From a virus: a stretch of DNA of 25,145 nucleotides. Below the pieces are notes generated by a model, which worked only from the letters and a program-made list of their open reading frames with translations, was not told the DNA's origin and ran no database searches. Numbering within the stretch: the stretch's first letter is position 1; each line of letters begins with the position of its first letter. Below, in pieces: positions 941 to 23,924 of this stretch. Position numbers and translations under genes: made by a program. The DNA lies in IMG/VR virus record IMGVR_UViG_3300042376_000788, positions 1 through 25,145 of that record; one strand, 5' to 3'.

Positions 941-3220
941 CTAAGCAGTTTGTGCGGCCATTGGGGGTCGGCCTGCGGGCCTTGCCGTTTTCTCAAGAAT
1001 AGAACTGCGGGTTTTAAGATCATTAAGAGCCATCTGCTGACGGATCGTTTCCATCTTCTGCTGATGGGTTTCTTGGTTCATCATGCGTTTTTCCTGCATT
1101 TCTGCCAACTTAAGTTGCGCTTTTTGCATTTCCATCTCCATCTTGGGATCAATCTGTCCCTGCGGTTGTTCTCCAACTTGCATGGCCTGTTCTTGAGCCT
1201 TGCTCTGTTGTGCCATCATACGATTGATGACCTGTTGCTCAAGCTCATCGATATAAGCGGTTAGGTTCTGGATTTGGCGCTTAAGTTCACGGACTTCCTG
1301 CGCCCTAAAGCTATTGTTGGAGAAGAAGACAAGGTGTTCGGTAACGTGATCAGAAGCAGGACGCAAGATCTGCATTGCCTGCTCATCGGCCATTTGCTGT
1401 TGGCGGTGGGCCTCAATGATCTCGGCAATCATCGGGATATGGGCCTCAATATGTACCGCATGGTTCTGGCTATCGTGAACCATCTGAGGAATGCCCTGAC
1501 GGAGGTTGCCATTCTCAAGGTTGGCGATATCAAAGTCCACCACACGGCGCGGGCCTTTGTCGGATACGAAGAGATTGACCTTCTGCCAACCCACACCAGA
1601 GATGCCAGCAATGACGGAACGCAAGGTATTCTCTTTGCCCTTCTCATCCATTAAGGAATAAAGCTCCATAAGTTGCTTGCTCGCCATTTCTGTCATTACG
1701 GGACTTCCATCACCCATGGCGCGGAACGCCGTGACCTTGAGGAACTGGCGCATACGTTCAATGGAAACTCCTCGACGCGCACAACGGCGGCGGAACTCAA
1801 GGGCAAGCTTTCCTCCCTTGTCATTGGCTGTAAGTAGGGGATTAACGGCCCTGCGGTATTGCTCTGTCAAAAGCTTATTGTAAGGAGTGTAGAAAAGTTC
1901 CAGTGCTGCGGCGTTGAGCGTGGACTCTTGACGGGCTTGCTGGACAACTTCAGTAGCAGAGCGGGCCTGTCCGTCTGGAGTAGCCTGACGCGAGCGATAG
2001 CTACCCGTGTTGTTCTGCAACACTTGGCTCATAAGATTGTAAACGGGAAGACCCTGAGTAGCAATCGACGGCGGTTGAAGTTGGATCGGGGTCAGCCCAC
2101 TAGGGATGAACGTGTAAGGCCCGACCTCAATATATTGAAAGTCTTGGATGGCTTCGGCGTCACCCTGCAATTGGATAAGCCCAGAGGTAATTGCGGCTTG
2201 GGCCGACTGACACAGAACCCTGTTAGAAATCTGGATCTGGTTGTAAATCTTCTGTTTTAGTCCGCGAATCGTATGGAAGGTTCCTTGTCCAACTCCATAG
2301 GTGAAGATGACAAAGCACTGATTCACGTTTCCGTAGCGGGAATAACGCTCGTAGAGGAAGTCCGAAGAATCACGGGAGCCGATAAGTTGGGTGAACTTGC
2401 CATCGAATTCGCGGTTGTAGCCGTAGATTAGCTGTGCGCGGTGGTAAGCCGACTCCCCAGCATAAAGGTCATTCTCCTTGATTTCGCGCTCAAAGTCTTC
2501 CCAGTGAGCGGTATAGTTCTTCCACTGATCCCGCTTGGTCGAAGCTTTCCAGATAGCCTGCTTAACCGCATTGATGTTCCACCCCAAGGCTTTGGCAGCT
2601 TTGGGATTTCGGATGTAATTGTAAAGCTCGCTTACGCTCATGGAGCGTTGGACGATGCCAACTTCAATAGCCTCATCTGATACTTTTGTATCGCGGGCAA
2701 CTTTGAAATCTTTGAGTCCACAGGGCTCCCAGAAGATAGAACGTTCGTCGGGCCACATAGCCACTCCAACTCCGTCACCCACAAACTCGCGGGAAAGAAG
2801 TTGCATGTTATAGGCGTGGTCGCTCCACTCCTTAAGCATCCAGTCAAACTCTTCAGAAATGATCTCAGAGTCCTCGTTAGAATCCCCATCATAGGAATTC
2901 ATAATGACGTTGGCGATGCGGGGTACTCCGTTCTGGAGTTCGATATACGGAGCCAAAGCGGCTTCCATGATGGCGTTGGCTTCCCCGAAGTTGGCGTTGA
3001 CCACATGGGTTAACCCCTTACTTTTCAGTTCTTCGGCATCGTATGGGGCTTCGCCGTTGACTAGGGCTTGCGCCCGCGCCCGAAGATACGCCGCATCCTC
3101 ATCTTGTTCGATATACTTGTTGGCGATTGCCACAAGGCTATCGGATGATTTGATGCGTTTTTTTGGTGGACTACCACTTTCTGGTAAGTTTTCCAGTTCT
3201 GCGTTACCTTGAGAAGCCAT
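941..3220 (-). CDS. Portal protein (P22/T7-type head-tail connector)
   Basis: At 759 residues this has the size expected for podoviral portals, which form the dodecameric ring at one capsid vertex through which DNA is packaged and ejected. The N-terminal third contains the mixed alpha/beta segment typical of the family, with AYNMQLLSREFVGDGVGVAM and a Trp/Pro-rich stretch after it. The central part (about residues 320-440) has QIQISNRVLCQSAQ, then VGPYTFIPSG, and a Gln/Ala/Arg-rich helix around SATEVVQQARQEST, as in portal stem and crown regions. The last 110 residues form a long Gln/Met/Lys-rich coiled coil. The start is ATG 3220; no clear Shine-Dalgarno site precedes it. Position between tail genes and the scaffold-like gene supports the call. 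The call rests on architecture and context rather than a single diagnostic residue. Confidence 0.85.
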   Translation of the reverse strand: MASQGNAELENLPESGSPPKKRIKSSDSLVAIANKYIEQDEDAAYLRARAQALVNGEAPYDAEELKSKGLTHVVNANFGEANAIMEAALAPYIELQNGVPRIANVIMNSYDGDSNEDSEIISEEFDWMLKEWSDHAYNMQLLSREFVGDGVGVAMWPDERSIFWEPCGLKDFKVARDTKVSDEAIEVGIVQRSMSVSELYNYIRNPKAAKALGWNINAVKQAIWKASTKRDQWKNYTAHWEDFEREIKENDLYAGESAYHRAQLIYGYNREFDGKFTQLIGSRDSSDFLYERYSRYGNVNQCFVIFTYGVGQGTFHTIRGLKQKIYNQIQISNRVLCQSAQAAITSGLIQLQGDAEAIQDFQYIEVGPYTFIPSGLTPIQLQPPSIATQGLPVYNLMSQVLQNNTGSYRSRQATPDGQARSATEVVQQARQESTLNAAALELFYTPYNKLLTEQYRRAVNPLLTANDKGGKLALEFRRRCARRGVSIERMRQFLKVTAFRAMGDGSPVMTEMASKQLMELYSLMDEKGKENTLRSVIAGISGVGWQKVNLFVSDKGPRRVVDFDIANLENGNLRQGIPQMVHDSQNHAVHIEAHIPMIAEIIEAHRQQQMADEQAMQILRPASDHVTEHLVFFSNNSFRAQEVRELKRQIQNLTAYIDELEQQVINRMMAQQSKAQEQAMQVGEQPQGQIDPKMEMEMQKAQLKLAEMQEKRMMNQETHQQKMETIRQQMALNDLKTRSSILEKTARPAGRPPMAAQTA

Positions 3221-18444: not shown

Positions 18445-18614
18445 GGTGTCCAATACTTAATCACACGTTCAAGAATATGTCCAACCCCGCTCCATCCATG
18501 GTGGGGATGGTAGTAGCAGGCCCATTTTAATGGAGGGTTTGACTCATCGTTTTTGATGAGGTAGATTCCCTCTGCATCAGGTTTTGTATCATTGTAATCG
18601 TTCCAAGTGATCAT
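18426..18614 (-). CDS. Small DUF551-like phage protein
   Basis: The 62-residue protein starts at ATG 18614. It has PDAEGIYLIKND, then WACYYHPHHGWSG, and ends with RVIKYWTPWPDSK. The order (a YLI strand, an aromatic strand, then V-x-x-W-x-P-x-P at the end) is reminiscent of DUF551-type phage proteins, whose function is unknown. It is the first gene of the leftward group after the rightward HNH gene, from which it diverges with a 7-base gap. Confidence 0.55.
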   Translation of the reverse strand: MITWNDYNDTKPDAEGIYLIKNDESNPPLKWACYYHPHHGWSGVGHILERVIKYWTPWPDSK

Positions 18615-18621
18615 AGTAGGT

Positions 18622-19026
18622 ATGACAAGAAAAACTCCACTTCGTTCAAAAACTCCATTAAGCAGAAATCAACCACTTAAACGCAGCGGAAGGTTGCGGC
18701 ATGCATCCCCCAAGCGCCAGAGTGAATACAAGGAGTATGCAAAGGTGAAGAAAGCTTACTTGGCACTGCATCCCATGTGTGAGAAATGCAAGAAGTCGAA
18801 GAGTCAGGACATTCATCATAAGGCGGGCAGGGTTGGTCGCTACCTTTGTGATTACAGCCTGTTTGCCGCGCTTTGTCGGGGTTGCCATGATTGGTGCCAT
18901 CAGAATGGACGAGAAGCCCGCAAGCAAGGCTGGATTATTGATACAGTTCATGTTCCTCAGTATCTGGCGGAAGAGCCTTCAGAAGCTCAATCTCATAGCC
19001 AAAGTCAGGCTCATACTCCCGAATAA
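18622..19026 (+). CDS. HNH endonuclease-type protein, antisense to the leftward operon
   Basis: The 134-residue protein starts at ATG 18622 (MTRKTPLRSKTPLSR). A GTG at 18607 is in frame but would overlap the divergent neighbour. The N-terminus is very basic. The nuclease core has CEKC (53-56), DIHHKAGR (63-70) with the paired His, and CRGCHDWCH (85-93), followed by EARKQGW. This C-C, HH-x-x-GR, C-x-x-CH pattern is typical of small phage HNH proteins near recombination and packaging genes. It may cut DNA structures or act as a homing nuclease. It is rightward inside a leftward block, and its last 92 bases overlap the 3' end of the lipoprotein-like gene. Confidence 0.75.
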   Translation: MTRKTPLRSKTPLSRNQPLKRSGRLRHASPKRQSEYKEYAKVKKAYLALHPMCEKCKKSKSQDIHHKAGRVGRYLCDYSLFAALCRGCHDWCHQNGREARKQGWIIDTVHVPQYLAEEPSEAQSHSQSQAHTPE

Positions 19027-20120: not shown

Positions 20121-20604
20121 AAAAGAGATTGGAAGCGGGGTGGCGCAACTTCATCGACCCCCCGATCTTTGAAGCTTCCGCATTTTCATGCCGAGTCTCC
20201 CCGCCTCCAAAAATAGCGGAATGCAGACGCTGGGCCACGGCTACATTCCTCGCATGAGCATCGGAGTTGACACTACCCATCCTGCTCCTGCTAGAAATAA
20301 TTTGCTGGGGACGAGTATGCATCCACTTTTCAGCGCACGGGTTGCCATGGTGACGAGGGTAGTGGGGTGCCGTGTTATAGGCCGACACAGGCCGATAAGC
20401 CGTATCCCTCTCCCGACCACGGAGTCCACCATACGGTGCTCCTCGTTTACTGCGCTGCCCAGCATTTTCCTCATCGTTTATTCCCGCGCCATGGAGACGC
20501 GCATCGAAACGTTCGGAATTGCGGGATTTCAGGTCGCTTGCCCCCGTGTTCACAGTGGCACCCTCAATGCATCCCGCAAAGTTGTTCATAGATACATAGA
20601 CCAT
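20086..20604 (-). CDS. Uncertain reading frame, Arg/His/Asn-rich
   Basis: The 172-residue frame is the first candidate gene of the leftward operon. It starts at ATG 20604, with an AAGGGG purine stretch just before it; a second ATG at 20589 has no such site. The product is basic and low in hydrophobic residues, with ARLHGAGINDEENAGQ and RSRMGSVNSDAHARNVAVAQ, and it appears mostly disordered. It overlaps the next gene by 35 bases. A similarly long frame exists on the plus strand (20188-20676), so coding status is not settled. The operon direction favours this one. Confidence 0.4.
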   Translation of the reverse strand: MVYVSMNNFAGCIEGATVNTGASDLKSRNSERFDARLHGAGINDEENAGQRSKRGAPYGGLRGRERDTAYRPVSAYNTAPHYPRHHGNPCAEKWMHTRPQQIISSRSRMGSVNSDAHARNVAVAQRLHSAIFGGGETRHENAEASKIGGSMKLRHPASNLFYEKTTTTGISH

Positions 20605-20735
20605 AGCCCCTTCGGGGCGTTCAATGTTTTTTTTAATAGATACATATTTTATGTATTATCCTCCATATCTGCGTAACCAAATCATGGTTTTACTCTGTTA
20701 AATTGGTTTTTAAAATTTCGGAAATGTTCCCAAAC

Positions 20736-21240
20736 GGCGGGCTTGGAGCCAGTCGCCCGCCTATAGGATTGATTAATTCCTTTGAGCTAGATCCTACCGA
20801 ATGACCACACCTCGCCCCCGCAGGGGCAAAGGCATGGTCAAATGGATCGGCTCATTCCTTGTGAGTGAGTCCTCCGCTTTATTCCACAGATCACGATCTA
20901 GGCTCCGAAGCCGCTAGTAGACCTTCAAACAACCGCAATCAACCTCCGAGGGTATTATCCCTCGCGCTTACCAGAGTTTTTCTGGATTCCCACGCCGCAA
21001 TAAGATCAAGCAATGGGACGGATGGCTAACTGTGAGTGCGGCGGTTTTACCCTTGCATACCTCGTCACAGGTTCTAGTGGCATATTTCACGCCCACTTTA
21101 CGGTGTCCGTCATGTCGTTGACACCGCGACCCTACAAAATGTTCAAACTTGGGTCAAGAAAAAAGAAATAGGGTGCGGCCCCGAATAACAAGTCAACGAT
21201 AAGACACCGCAAAACGGAACCGCACCCAGAACTATGCAAA
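20736..21240 (-). ncRNA. Candidate large structured RNA (or structured origin/leader) in the divergent gap
   Basis: The 693-base stretch 20605-21297 has no convincing gene but many perfect inverted repeats. Helices seen (plus coordinates): 20736-42/20755-61 (7 bp); a nested set 20784-87/20850-53, 20790-94/20844-48, 20802-07/20835-40, 20814-18/20823-27; 20947-52/20959-64 (6 bp); 20971-75/20981-85; 20993-99/21037-43 (7 bp); 21076-80/21093-97; 21101-07/21120-26 (7 bp); 21128-32/21151-55; 21171-78/21220-27 (8 bp). A long-range pair TTGCATA/TATGCAA (21053-59/21233-39) would close the last four into one multibranch domain. TCGTTGAC and GTCAACGA (21114-21/21192-99) offer an alternative or pseudoknot pairing. 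A leftward promoter directly upstream makes the minus strand the likely RNA. No tRNA, tmRNA or RNase P signature is seen. It may belong to a phage-borne large RNA class or be an origin; neither is shown. Confidence 0.5.
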
Positions 21241-21248
21241 CGAACGCC

Positions 21249-21277
21249 AAAATAACTAAGAGTGGCTACTCTGTCAA
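21249..21277 (-). promoter_or_regulatory. Leftward sigma70-type promoter
   Basis: On the minus strand a perfect TTGACA (21277-21272) is followed by exactly 17 bases and TATTTT (21254-21249, four of six consensus bases). Transcription would start near 21242, at the edge of the structured region, and would run into the leftward operon if not terminated. It is the best promoter match seen in the window. Confidence 0.55.
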
Positions 21278-21288
21278 CAAGAGAGTAG
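21259..21288. promoter_or_regulatory. Inverted repeats overlapping the -35 box (candidate operator)
   Basis: AGAGT (21259-63) and ACTCT (21268-72) form one inverted repeat. CTACTCT (21266-72) and AGAGTAG (21282-88) form a second, perfect 7-base one around the leftward -35. The three half-sites share AGAGT. This fits a repressor site controlling the leftward promoter, or a leader hairpin for the rightward HNH gene whose start is at 21298. Confidence 0.4.
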
Positions 21289-21297
21289 GATCTTTCT

Positions 21298-21585
21298 GTG
21301 GATAAAGAATCCTATAAAGCCTACTTGAACACCCCTTATTGGCGGGAAGTAAGCCGACTTGTGAAGAAGCGGTTCGGGTGGAGGTGTGGGGTTTGCAATA
21401 GCCCGCTAGAACTTCAGGCCCACCACCGCACCTACGAACACCGAGGGGACGAACTTAACCATCTGGATGACCTAATCTGCCTGTGCAAGATCTGCCACAA
21501 AATGTTCCACAGAGAACAAAAGAAGGCTAAACCGCGAAAGGCGCGGAAACGAAAGTCTCCACGCCTCTCCAATATTAATATTTGA
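21298..21585 (+). CDS. HNH endonuclease
   Basis: The 95-residue protein has the canonical small HNH core: CGVC (30-33), QAHHRTYEHRGDE (40-52) with the His pair and the YxHxGDE turn, then DLICLCKICHKMFH (58-71). The C-terminus is a Lys/Arg tail. It starts at GTG 21298, since no in-frame ATG precedes the core; AGGA lies 9 bases upstream. Such proteins nick or cut double-stranded DNA using one metal ion. As the first rightward gene it may be a free-standing homing nuclease beside the structured region or a recombination/packaging helper. Confidence 0.85.
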   Translation: MDKESYKAYLNTPYWREVSRLVKKRFGWRCGVCNSPLELQAHHRTYEHRGDELNHLDDLICLCKICHKMFHREQKKAKPRKARKRKSPRLSNINI

Positions 21586-21590
21586 CGTAT

Positions 21591-21617
21591 ATTGAACAAC
21601 AGCTAGGTTTAAGTGTC
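21591..21617 (+). promoter_or_regulatory. Repeated upstream motif, copy 1 (ATTGAAC-N11-TTAAGTGTC)
   Basis: ATTGAAC (21591-97), 11 bases, then TTAAGTGTC (21609-17), ending 13 bases before the ATG of the HTH gene. The same two blocks with the same spacing occur at 23888-23914. Both are also preceded by TTGAC. TATAAT at 21622-27 follows this copy but is very near the start codon. Confidence 0.45.
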
Positions 21618-21630
21618 AATATATAATCAT

Positions 21631-23887: not shown

Positions 23888-23914
23888 ATTGAACGAGTTC
23901 CGACATTAAGTGTC
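23888..23914 (+). promoter_or_regulatory. Repeated upstream motif, copy 2 (ATTGAAC-N11-TTAAGTGTC)
   Basis: ATTGAAC (23888-94), 11 bases, then TTAAGTGTC (23906-14), ending 10 bases before the ATG at 23925. The overlapping TTGACA at 23883-88 followed by 17 bases and TTAAGT (23906-11) could be a weak sigma70 promoter. The match to copy 1 at 21591-21617 in both blocks and spacing is exact. Confidence 0.45.
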
Positions 23915-23924
23915 TTACTTAACT

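Follow-up and report, generated by a model that had tools for sequence, protein, structure and literature searches.

What does a phage keep at a divergent gene junction in which no gene can be found? The window, by which we mean the whole 25,145-base stretch analysed, is an IMG/VR virus record of a phage known from metagenomes only. Its leftward arm, with the terminase, the DnaB helicase and other genes, meets at this junction a rightward arm with HNH, HTH and dCMP deaminase genes. A sequence-only reading had described the interval as gene-free and rich in short inverted repeats, and had proposed either a large leftward RNA of the GOLLD or ROOL class, perhaps diverged, or a structured replication origin between the arms. 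Both observations hold, since 20677-21297 contains no open reading frame of at least 60 aa and 20 pairs of inverted repeats were detected. Among 50,697 phage records there were no matches to the terminase, to the 759-aa protein (941-3220) or to the junction DNA, and relatives of the window were located in IMG/VR only; a scan of cellular genomes with an RNA motif returned just two chance-like matches and did not pinpoint the host. The gene to the right of the junction is listed below, and a second HNH-like gene lies within the leftward arm (18607-19026, plus strand).

21298..21585, plus strand: free-standing HNH endonuclease gene that adjoins the module (PHROG HNH families up to 3.5e-9, Pfam HNH 2.7e-4)

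Comparison with relatives indicates, beyond reasonable doubt, that the junction carries a real structured RNA, which is almost surely encoded on the minus strand. Against 20 dinucleotide shuffles, the minus strand of the junction folds far better than expected (z = -5.6), and the plus strand gives z = -2.9. Conservation of the DNA extends over about 557 nt in close relatives and over a shorter core in distant ones. About 37 distinct full-length versions were collected from IMG/VR by profile match, and no frame is open throughout the homologues. The conserved core comprises about 390 nt, with a 5' end uncertain by tens of nucleotides, and contains the following elements.

20736..21122, minus strand: conserved core of the large RNA, from P2 to P12 with a terminal GC hairpin (37 homologues, compensatory changes, no open frame)
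21030..21070, minus strand: helix P4 (21070-21065 with 21035-21030), with double changes at 6 of 6 pairs and 92% of cells paired
20989..21017, minus strand: helix P5 (CCCA...UGGG), where both C-G and U-G are changed to A-U
20971..20985, minus strand: helix P6, a short hairpin (alignment)
20947..20964, minus strand: helix P7, which is CGAGGG/CCCUCG, ACAGGG/CCCUGU or CCAGA/UCUGG by lineage
20889..20940, minus strand: helix P8, 9-10 bp around a CGGAGC(C/U) loop region (cognate versus non-cognate duplexes, p<=2e-4)
20801..20842, minus strand: helix P11, a nested hairpin with a GCCCC/GGGGC tip (22 distinct versions)
20736..20761, minus strand: terminal GC hairpin GGCGGGC/GCCCGCC (inverted-repeat search, alignment)

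The interval first assigned to the RNA was too wide: conserved RNA structure occupies about 21122-20736, while 21227-21158 forms a separate terminator-like hairpin and 20735-20625 is AT-rich and holds no conserved RNA structure. Within the core, P4 closes the most conserved motif, GGUAUGCAAGGRUNANACCGCC, and the irregular hairpin noted earlier at about 20784-20853 corresponds to P11 (20842-20801). Also pointed out earlier was the pairing of TCGTTGAC with GTCAACGA; it is real, and nothing else at the locus covaries as well. A 7-bp long-range pair (21053-59 with 21233-39) fared worse: it is not conserved in relatives, GGUAUGCAAGG being universal and its proposed 5' partner confined to the closest relatives of the window.

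Folded singly, certain distant members are hardly more stable than expected, and the case for the RNA therefore rests on covariation. In P4 and P5 together, 90.8% of cells are paired, compared with 70.8% in shuffles and at most 48% in slid controls, and both-sided changes occur in 31 cells versus 12.0 in shuffles (0 of 500 as good). When covariation was scanned all against all with two phylogenetic nulls, only four or five column pairs came out significant, two of them clearly complementary and the top one being 21195-21118; such a scan is limited by recombination, by misaligned loops and by the close identity of the sequences, and helices were therefore tested singly by comparing cognate with non-cognate strands. 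In this alignment-free permutation, in which relatedness is not fully modelled, the strands of P4, P5, P7, P8 and P11 each pair more strongly within than between genomes (p<=2e-4), even though the P5, P7 and P8 windows are misplaced in a few sequences, which biases against the result. Every helix that was tested is preserved through compensatory changes.

An untranscribed element acting as DNA, such as a cruciform or a cluster of operators, might also leave inverted repeats and a promoter motif at a divergent junction. We find this hardly credible, as G-U pairs are kept that are valid on the minus strand only (for example the U-G:7 column in P5), helices of 9-12 bp persist while their sequence changes, unpaired loops such as GGUAUGCAAGG are conserved, and hairpins are expandable. 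In relatives P6 is swapped for long-stem arms of about 70 nt or about 100 nt (L043/L088/L090/L109; L001/L011/L091). Replaceable hairpin arms are common among large functional RNAs.

The RNA very probably belongs to no described family, judging from covariance models and from a search of the open-access journal literature. With Rfam 15, neither the window nor 17 related loci matched any family at gathering thresholds, and the window and two distant members gave no match at E<=10. GOLLD and ROOL were rejected at both settings for want of a covariance-model match, as were group I and II introns and other Rfam families; neither ARAGORN nor Rfam identified a tmRNA or tRNA in the junction. The known antisense RNA I, sought for likeness to ColE1 along with other Rfam families, was likewise unmatched. 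The earlier proposal is thereby divided: a large, structured, leftward phage RNA is supported, and membership of GOLLD or ROOL, or detectable descent from them, is not. One viral contig carries a tmRNA (L194 3297-3650; Rfam RF00023, 7.1e-38) directly before its homologue of the 216-aa gene that neighbours the junction.

Three promoter-like elements on the minus strand bear on how the locus would be transcribed.

21249..21277, minus strand: TTGACA-17-TATTTT promoter, most likely that of the P1 RNA described below (conservation in close relatives)
21117..21157, minus strand: candidate promoter of the large RNA, TTGAAC (21146-21141)-N18-GTC (21122-21120) (motif enrichment)
20597..20624, minus strand: phage promoter TTGAAC-N17-GTCTA, serving the leftward gene 20604-20086 (kept with or without the RNA)

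The first of these (21277-21249) had been proposed as the start of the large RNA; the promoter is indeed present, but it probably starts a short hairpin RNA upstream instead. Because promoter-like sites were about equally frequent in shuffles in our promoter scan, support for it comes from conservation: by inspection of the alignment, close relatives have TTGAC(A/T) and, 16-17 nt away, a plausible -10 box. The candidate for the large RNA, which overlaps a sigma70-like TTGACC-17-TAGGGT (21157-21129), belongs to a recurrent motif. TTGAAC-N17/18-GTCWW occurs five times in the window, the N18 site of the RNA gene included, versus 0.06 expected, and the sites with N17 are 18649-18622 and 20624-20597 on the minus strand and 21592-21619 and 23889-23916 on the plus strand. 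When all loci are counted, the spacer is 17 in 92 distinct cases, 18 in 15, and any other length in no more than 10 each. Such a sharply fixed spacer suggests a phage-modified RNA polymerase, and the position of the ATG, mostly 12-15 nt 3' of GTC in TTGAAC-N17-GTCWW, would suit leaderless messages. The third promoter bears on the idea that the RNA serves the leftward operon as a long 5' leader with a regulatory role, as a riboswitch or in antitermination. In favour of this, the RNA is co-directional with the left arm and does not clearly end in an intrinsic terminator; the first leftward gene, however, has this phage promoter of its own (20624-20597), which RNA-less phages keep too, and a leader is thus very unlikely.

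Upstream of the core lies a hairpin, P1, whose loop contains a stretch complementary to the large RNA's 5' end.

21158..21227, minus strand: P1, a hairpin with a GC-rich stem of 12 bp and a long loop (stem-loop 21227-21171), followed by a U-rich tract (compensatory changes)
21192..21210, minus strand: segment X, part of the P1 loop and antisense to the large RNA at its 5' end (duplex permutation)
21097..21122, minus strand: 5'-terminal target of X in the large RNA, able to form the local hairpin P2 instead (duplex permutation, covariation scan)

In the P1 stem 99.4% of cells are paired, and changes on one side are compensated on the other; the hairpin went unflagged in the terminator scan, which allows loops of at most 8 nt. 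P1 is most likely the terminator-like end of a separate RNA of about 75 nt that would start at about 21242. Across 24 distinct alleles, cognate duplexes of X with its target contain 19-26 pairs and average -32.2 kcal/mol, compared with -19.5 for non-cognate ones, and the observed sum of -773 was equalled by none of 20,000 permutations, the best of which reached -615. X and its target diverge widely, yet together. The incompatibility determinants of antisense-controlled plasmids likewise diverge jointly.

The same complementarity would fit pairing in cis equally well, and P1 was at first taken for the 5' domain of one RNA of about 500 nt, transcribed from TTGACA-17-TATTTT, in which X and its target would form an internal long-range (pseudoknot) helix. 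The downstream promoter predicts a start that would leave the 5' strand of P2 outside the RNA, on its upstream side, which also speaks for such a transcript. This idea was demoted to a rival that we now consider doubtful, because P1 appears to have its own promoter, a U-rich tract follows it in all P1-bearing alleles, the large RNA retains a promoter motif of its own, and the core occurs without P1 in distant members (L185, L168, L233, L238, L167, L201 and L223), where the RNA is directly divergent from the HTH gene. RNA-less loci gave no profile match and hence no P1 either. Alleles of P1, of the P6 arm and of the flanks are mixed in many combinations across L001-L111, and the module looks heavily recombined.

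A preference among functions comes from what replaces the RNA. In RNA-less sister phages the same junction holds, on the opposite strand, an ORF of about 180 aa whose product matches phrog_4707 (replication initiation, 1e-14) and phrog_186 (DnaD-like helicase loader, 1e-12). The protein matched no Pfam family and, by sequence, no solved structure; an AlphaFold model of low confidence contains a winged helix. Inside the gene are tandem pairs of 15-16-bp repeats (L131 2926-3005, L149 2373-2436), which may be iteron-like, as are origin iterons within initiator genes. The 28 records fall into 13 with a single RNA and without such a protein, eight with the protein but not the RNA, and seven with neither; those of the seven that were checked have only one or a few genes in common with the lineage. 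At junctions covered on both sides, the counts for RNA, protein, both and neither were 10/6/0/0 in a sample drawn by terminase, 24/7/0/0 by HNH and 29/10/0/0 by the neighbouring 216-aa gene, these samples overlapping and thus not being independent. On the tree of the 216-aa gene, the state changes between RNA and protein nine times, at least six of them across well-supported branches. DnaB of the window is 99.8% identical to that of a protein-bearing phage (L131), and one helicase thus serves both kinds. An RNA-bearing genome that looks complete, with repeated ends (G018; L273), encodes helicase and primase, and no initiator was found among its 20 scanned ORFs. In this genome a 545-aa ORF (L273 13246-14883) replaces the 216-aa gene and is probably an intein, its extra part matching anaerobic ribonucleotide reductase, recombinase and helicase families.

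This exchange also bears on whether the RNA is an ornamental one of the GOLLD or ROOL kind, abundant, self-assembling, possibly forming a cage like the homo-oligomeric nanocage of ROOL, and with no part in replication, its alternation with the replication gene being ordinary cassette swapping at a recombination-prone place. All are large, ornate, phage-encoded RNAs with many helices and variable, replaceable peripheral arms, and exchange at the junction is frequent. In phages and prophages, GOLLD is often close to tRNA genes. Met-tRNA, found near GOLLD env-38 (PMC12286853), is also encoded near our RNA in several phages (tRNA-Met (CAT) at L076 3296-3370, L014 2732-2807, L001 2571-2645, L109 2846-2919 and L167 3005-3079), on the strand of the RNA wherever the RNA is present; the window itself contains no tRNA gene. 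However, a tRNA-Met (CAT) gene lies near the junction of an RNA-less phage as well (L136 1137-1212), covariance models find no match, the core of about 390 nt compares with 659 nt for ROOL env-120 and often more than 800 nt for GOLLD (PMC12286853), and cassette swapping leaves unexplained why RNA-less junctions constantly hold a replication-initiation-like gene. On balance, an ornamental RNA is unlikely.

The other alternative in the sequence-only reading, a structured origin, is the better guess at function, because it is precisely here that the RNA-less sisters carry a replication-initiation-like gene; for the same reason the RNA may help to start the copying of phage DNA. While the evidence for structure and for a new family is strong, the role in replication is one we infer, and we put the probability that the RNA and P1 constitute an RNA-based replication-origin module at roughly 0.5. 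The fuller proposal, that the family substitutes for an initiator protein as an RNA-only origin, often with tandem antisense copy control and repeatedly swapped, is quite possible, if short of probable. The DNA on the 3' side of the RNA would fit an origin.

20625..20735, no strand assigned: AT-rich stretch directly 3' of the RNA (27% GC, in the lowest 0.4% of 100-nt windows)

An A-rich tail follows the RNA in nearly all homologues, and this stretch is a candidate unwinding element, or may be an UP element for the next promoter. The repeat ATAGATACATA occurs on both sides of it, in two copies 48 nt apart (20582-20646). In the mechanism that we propose, a phage-type promoter belonging to the large RNA would drive its transcription leftward into the AT-rich stretch, and the RNA would fold; the folded RNA would remain at, or return to, the DNA as a primer or R-loop and open it, admitting the DnaB helicase and primase that the phage itself encodes. 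In members that have it, the P1 RNA would pair with the large RNA at its 5' end, limiting or timing initiation much as RNA I does for ColE1 RNA II, and in sister phages the whole module would be replaced by the initiator protein gene. Some observations weigh against an origin: GC skew is flat and gives no origin signal, mutual exclusion is partly expected of two allelic cassettes (although never finding neither is not), and an unrecognised initiator may be encoded elsewhere, the HTH gene at 21613 being present in both RNA-bearing and RNA-less phages. Most distant members lack P1, which argues against antisense control as a universal feature.

If the proposal is true, one phage lineage alternates between RNA and protein for starting replication, at the same place and with nearly the same helicase. 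Whether an RNA can replace an initiator protein in a phage is an old question, which module swaps would address directly. Even without a role in replication, the find matters: Rfam lacks this family of large, well-conserved phage RNAs, which comes with an antisense partner of its own that diverges fast, and the terminase of the phage lineage is unmatched in the 50,697 records.

Among known systems, the closest parallels are ColE1 and the R-loop origins of T4, the likeness lying in logic and not in sequence. In ColE1, RNA II is the primer RNA and RNA I the antisense RNA (PMC11012335). Priming there involves an RNA-DNA hybrid that RNase H cuts. Both systems have a structured RNA of several hundred nucleotides and a small RNA, putative at our locus, antisense to its 5' end, with an antisense loop as part of the match, pairing sequences that diverge fast and co-vary, and no initiator protein; here the small partner is seen as sequence complementarity only. 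Unlike that of ColE1, which overlaps its target on the opposite strand, the small RNA here would lie upstream, in tandem on the same strand, and it is missing in many distant members; the setting is a phage rather than a plasmid, Rfam gives no match, and the primer role is putative. ColE1-like antisense control by P1 is a tentative suggestion. Modules of the lambda O/P type, with origin repeats inside the initiator gene, resemble the gene of about 180 aa that sister phages have at this junction, where the window has the RNA and no such gene. The R-loop origins of T4 (oriF and oriG) require a promoter and a downstream A+T-rich element, and R-loop formation there is independent of specific sequence (PMC3016281). 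They share with our locus a phage-encoded helicase and primase and, unless the AT-rich stretch here serves the next promoter, a phage-type promoter followed by an A+T-rich stretch; here, in contrast, a conserved structured RNA lies between the promoter and the AT-rich stretch.
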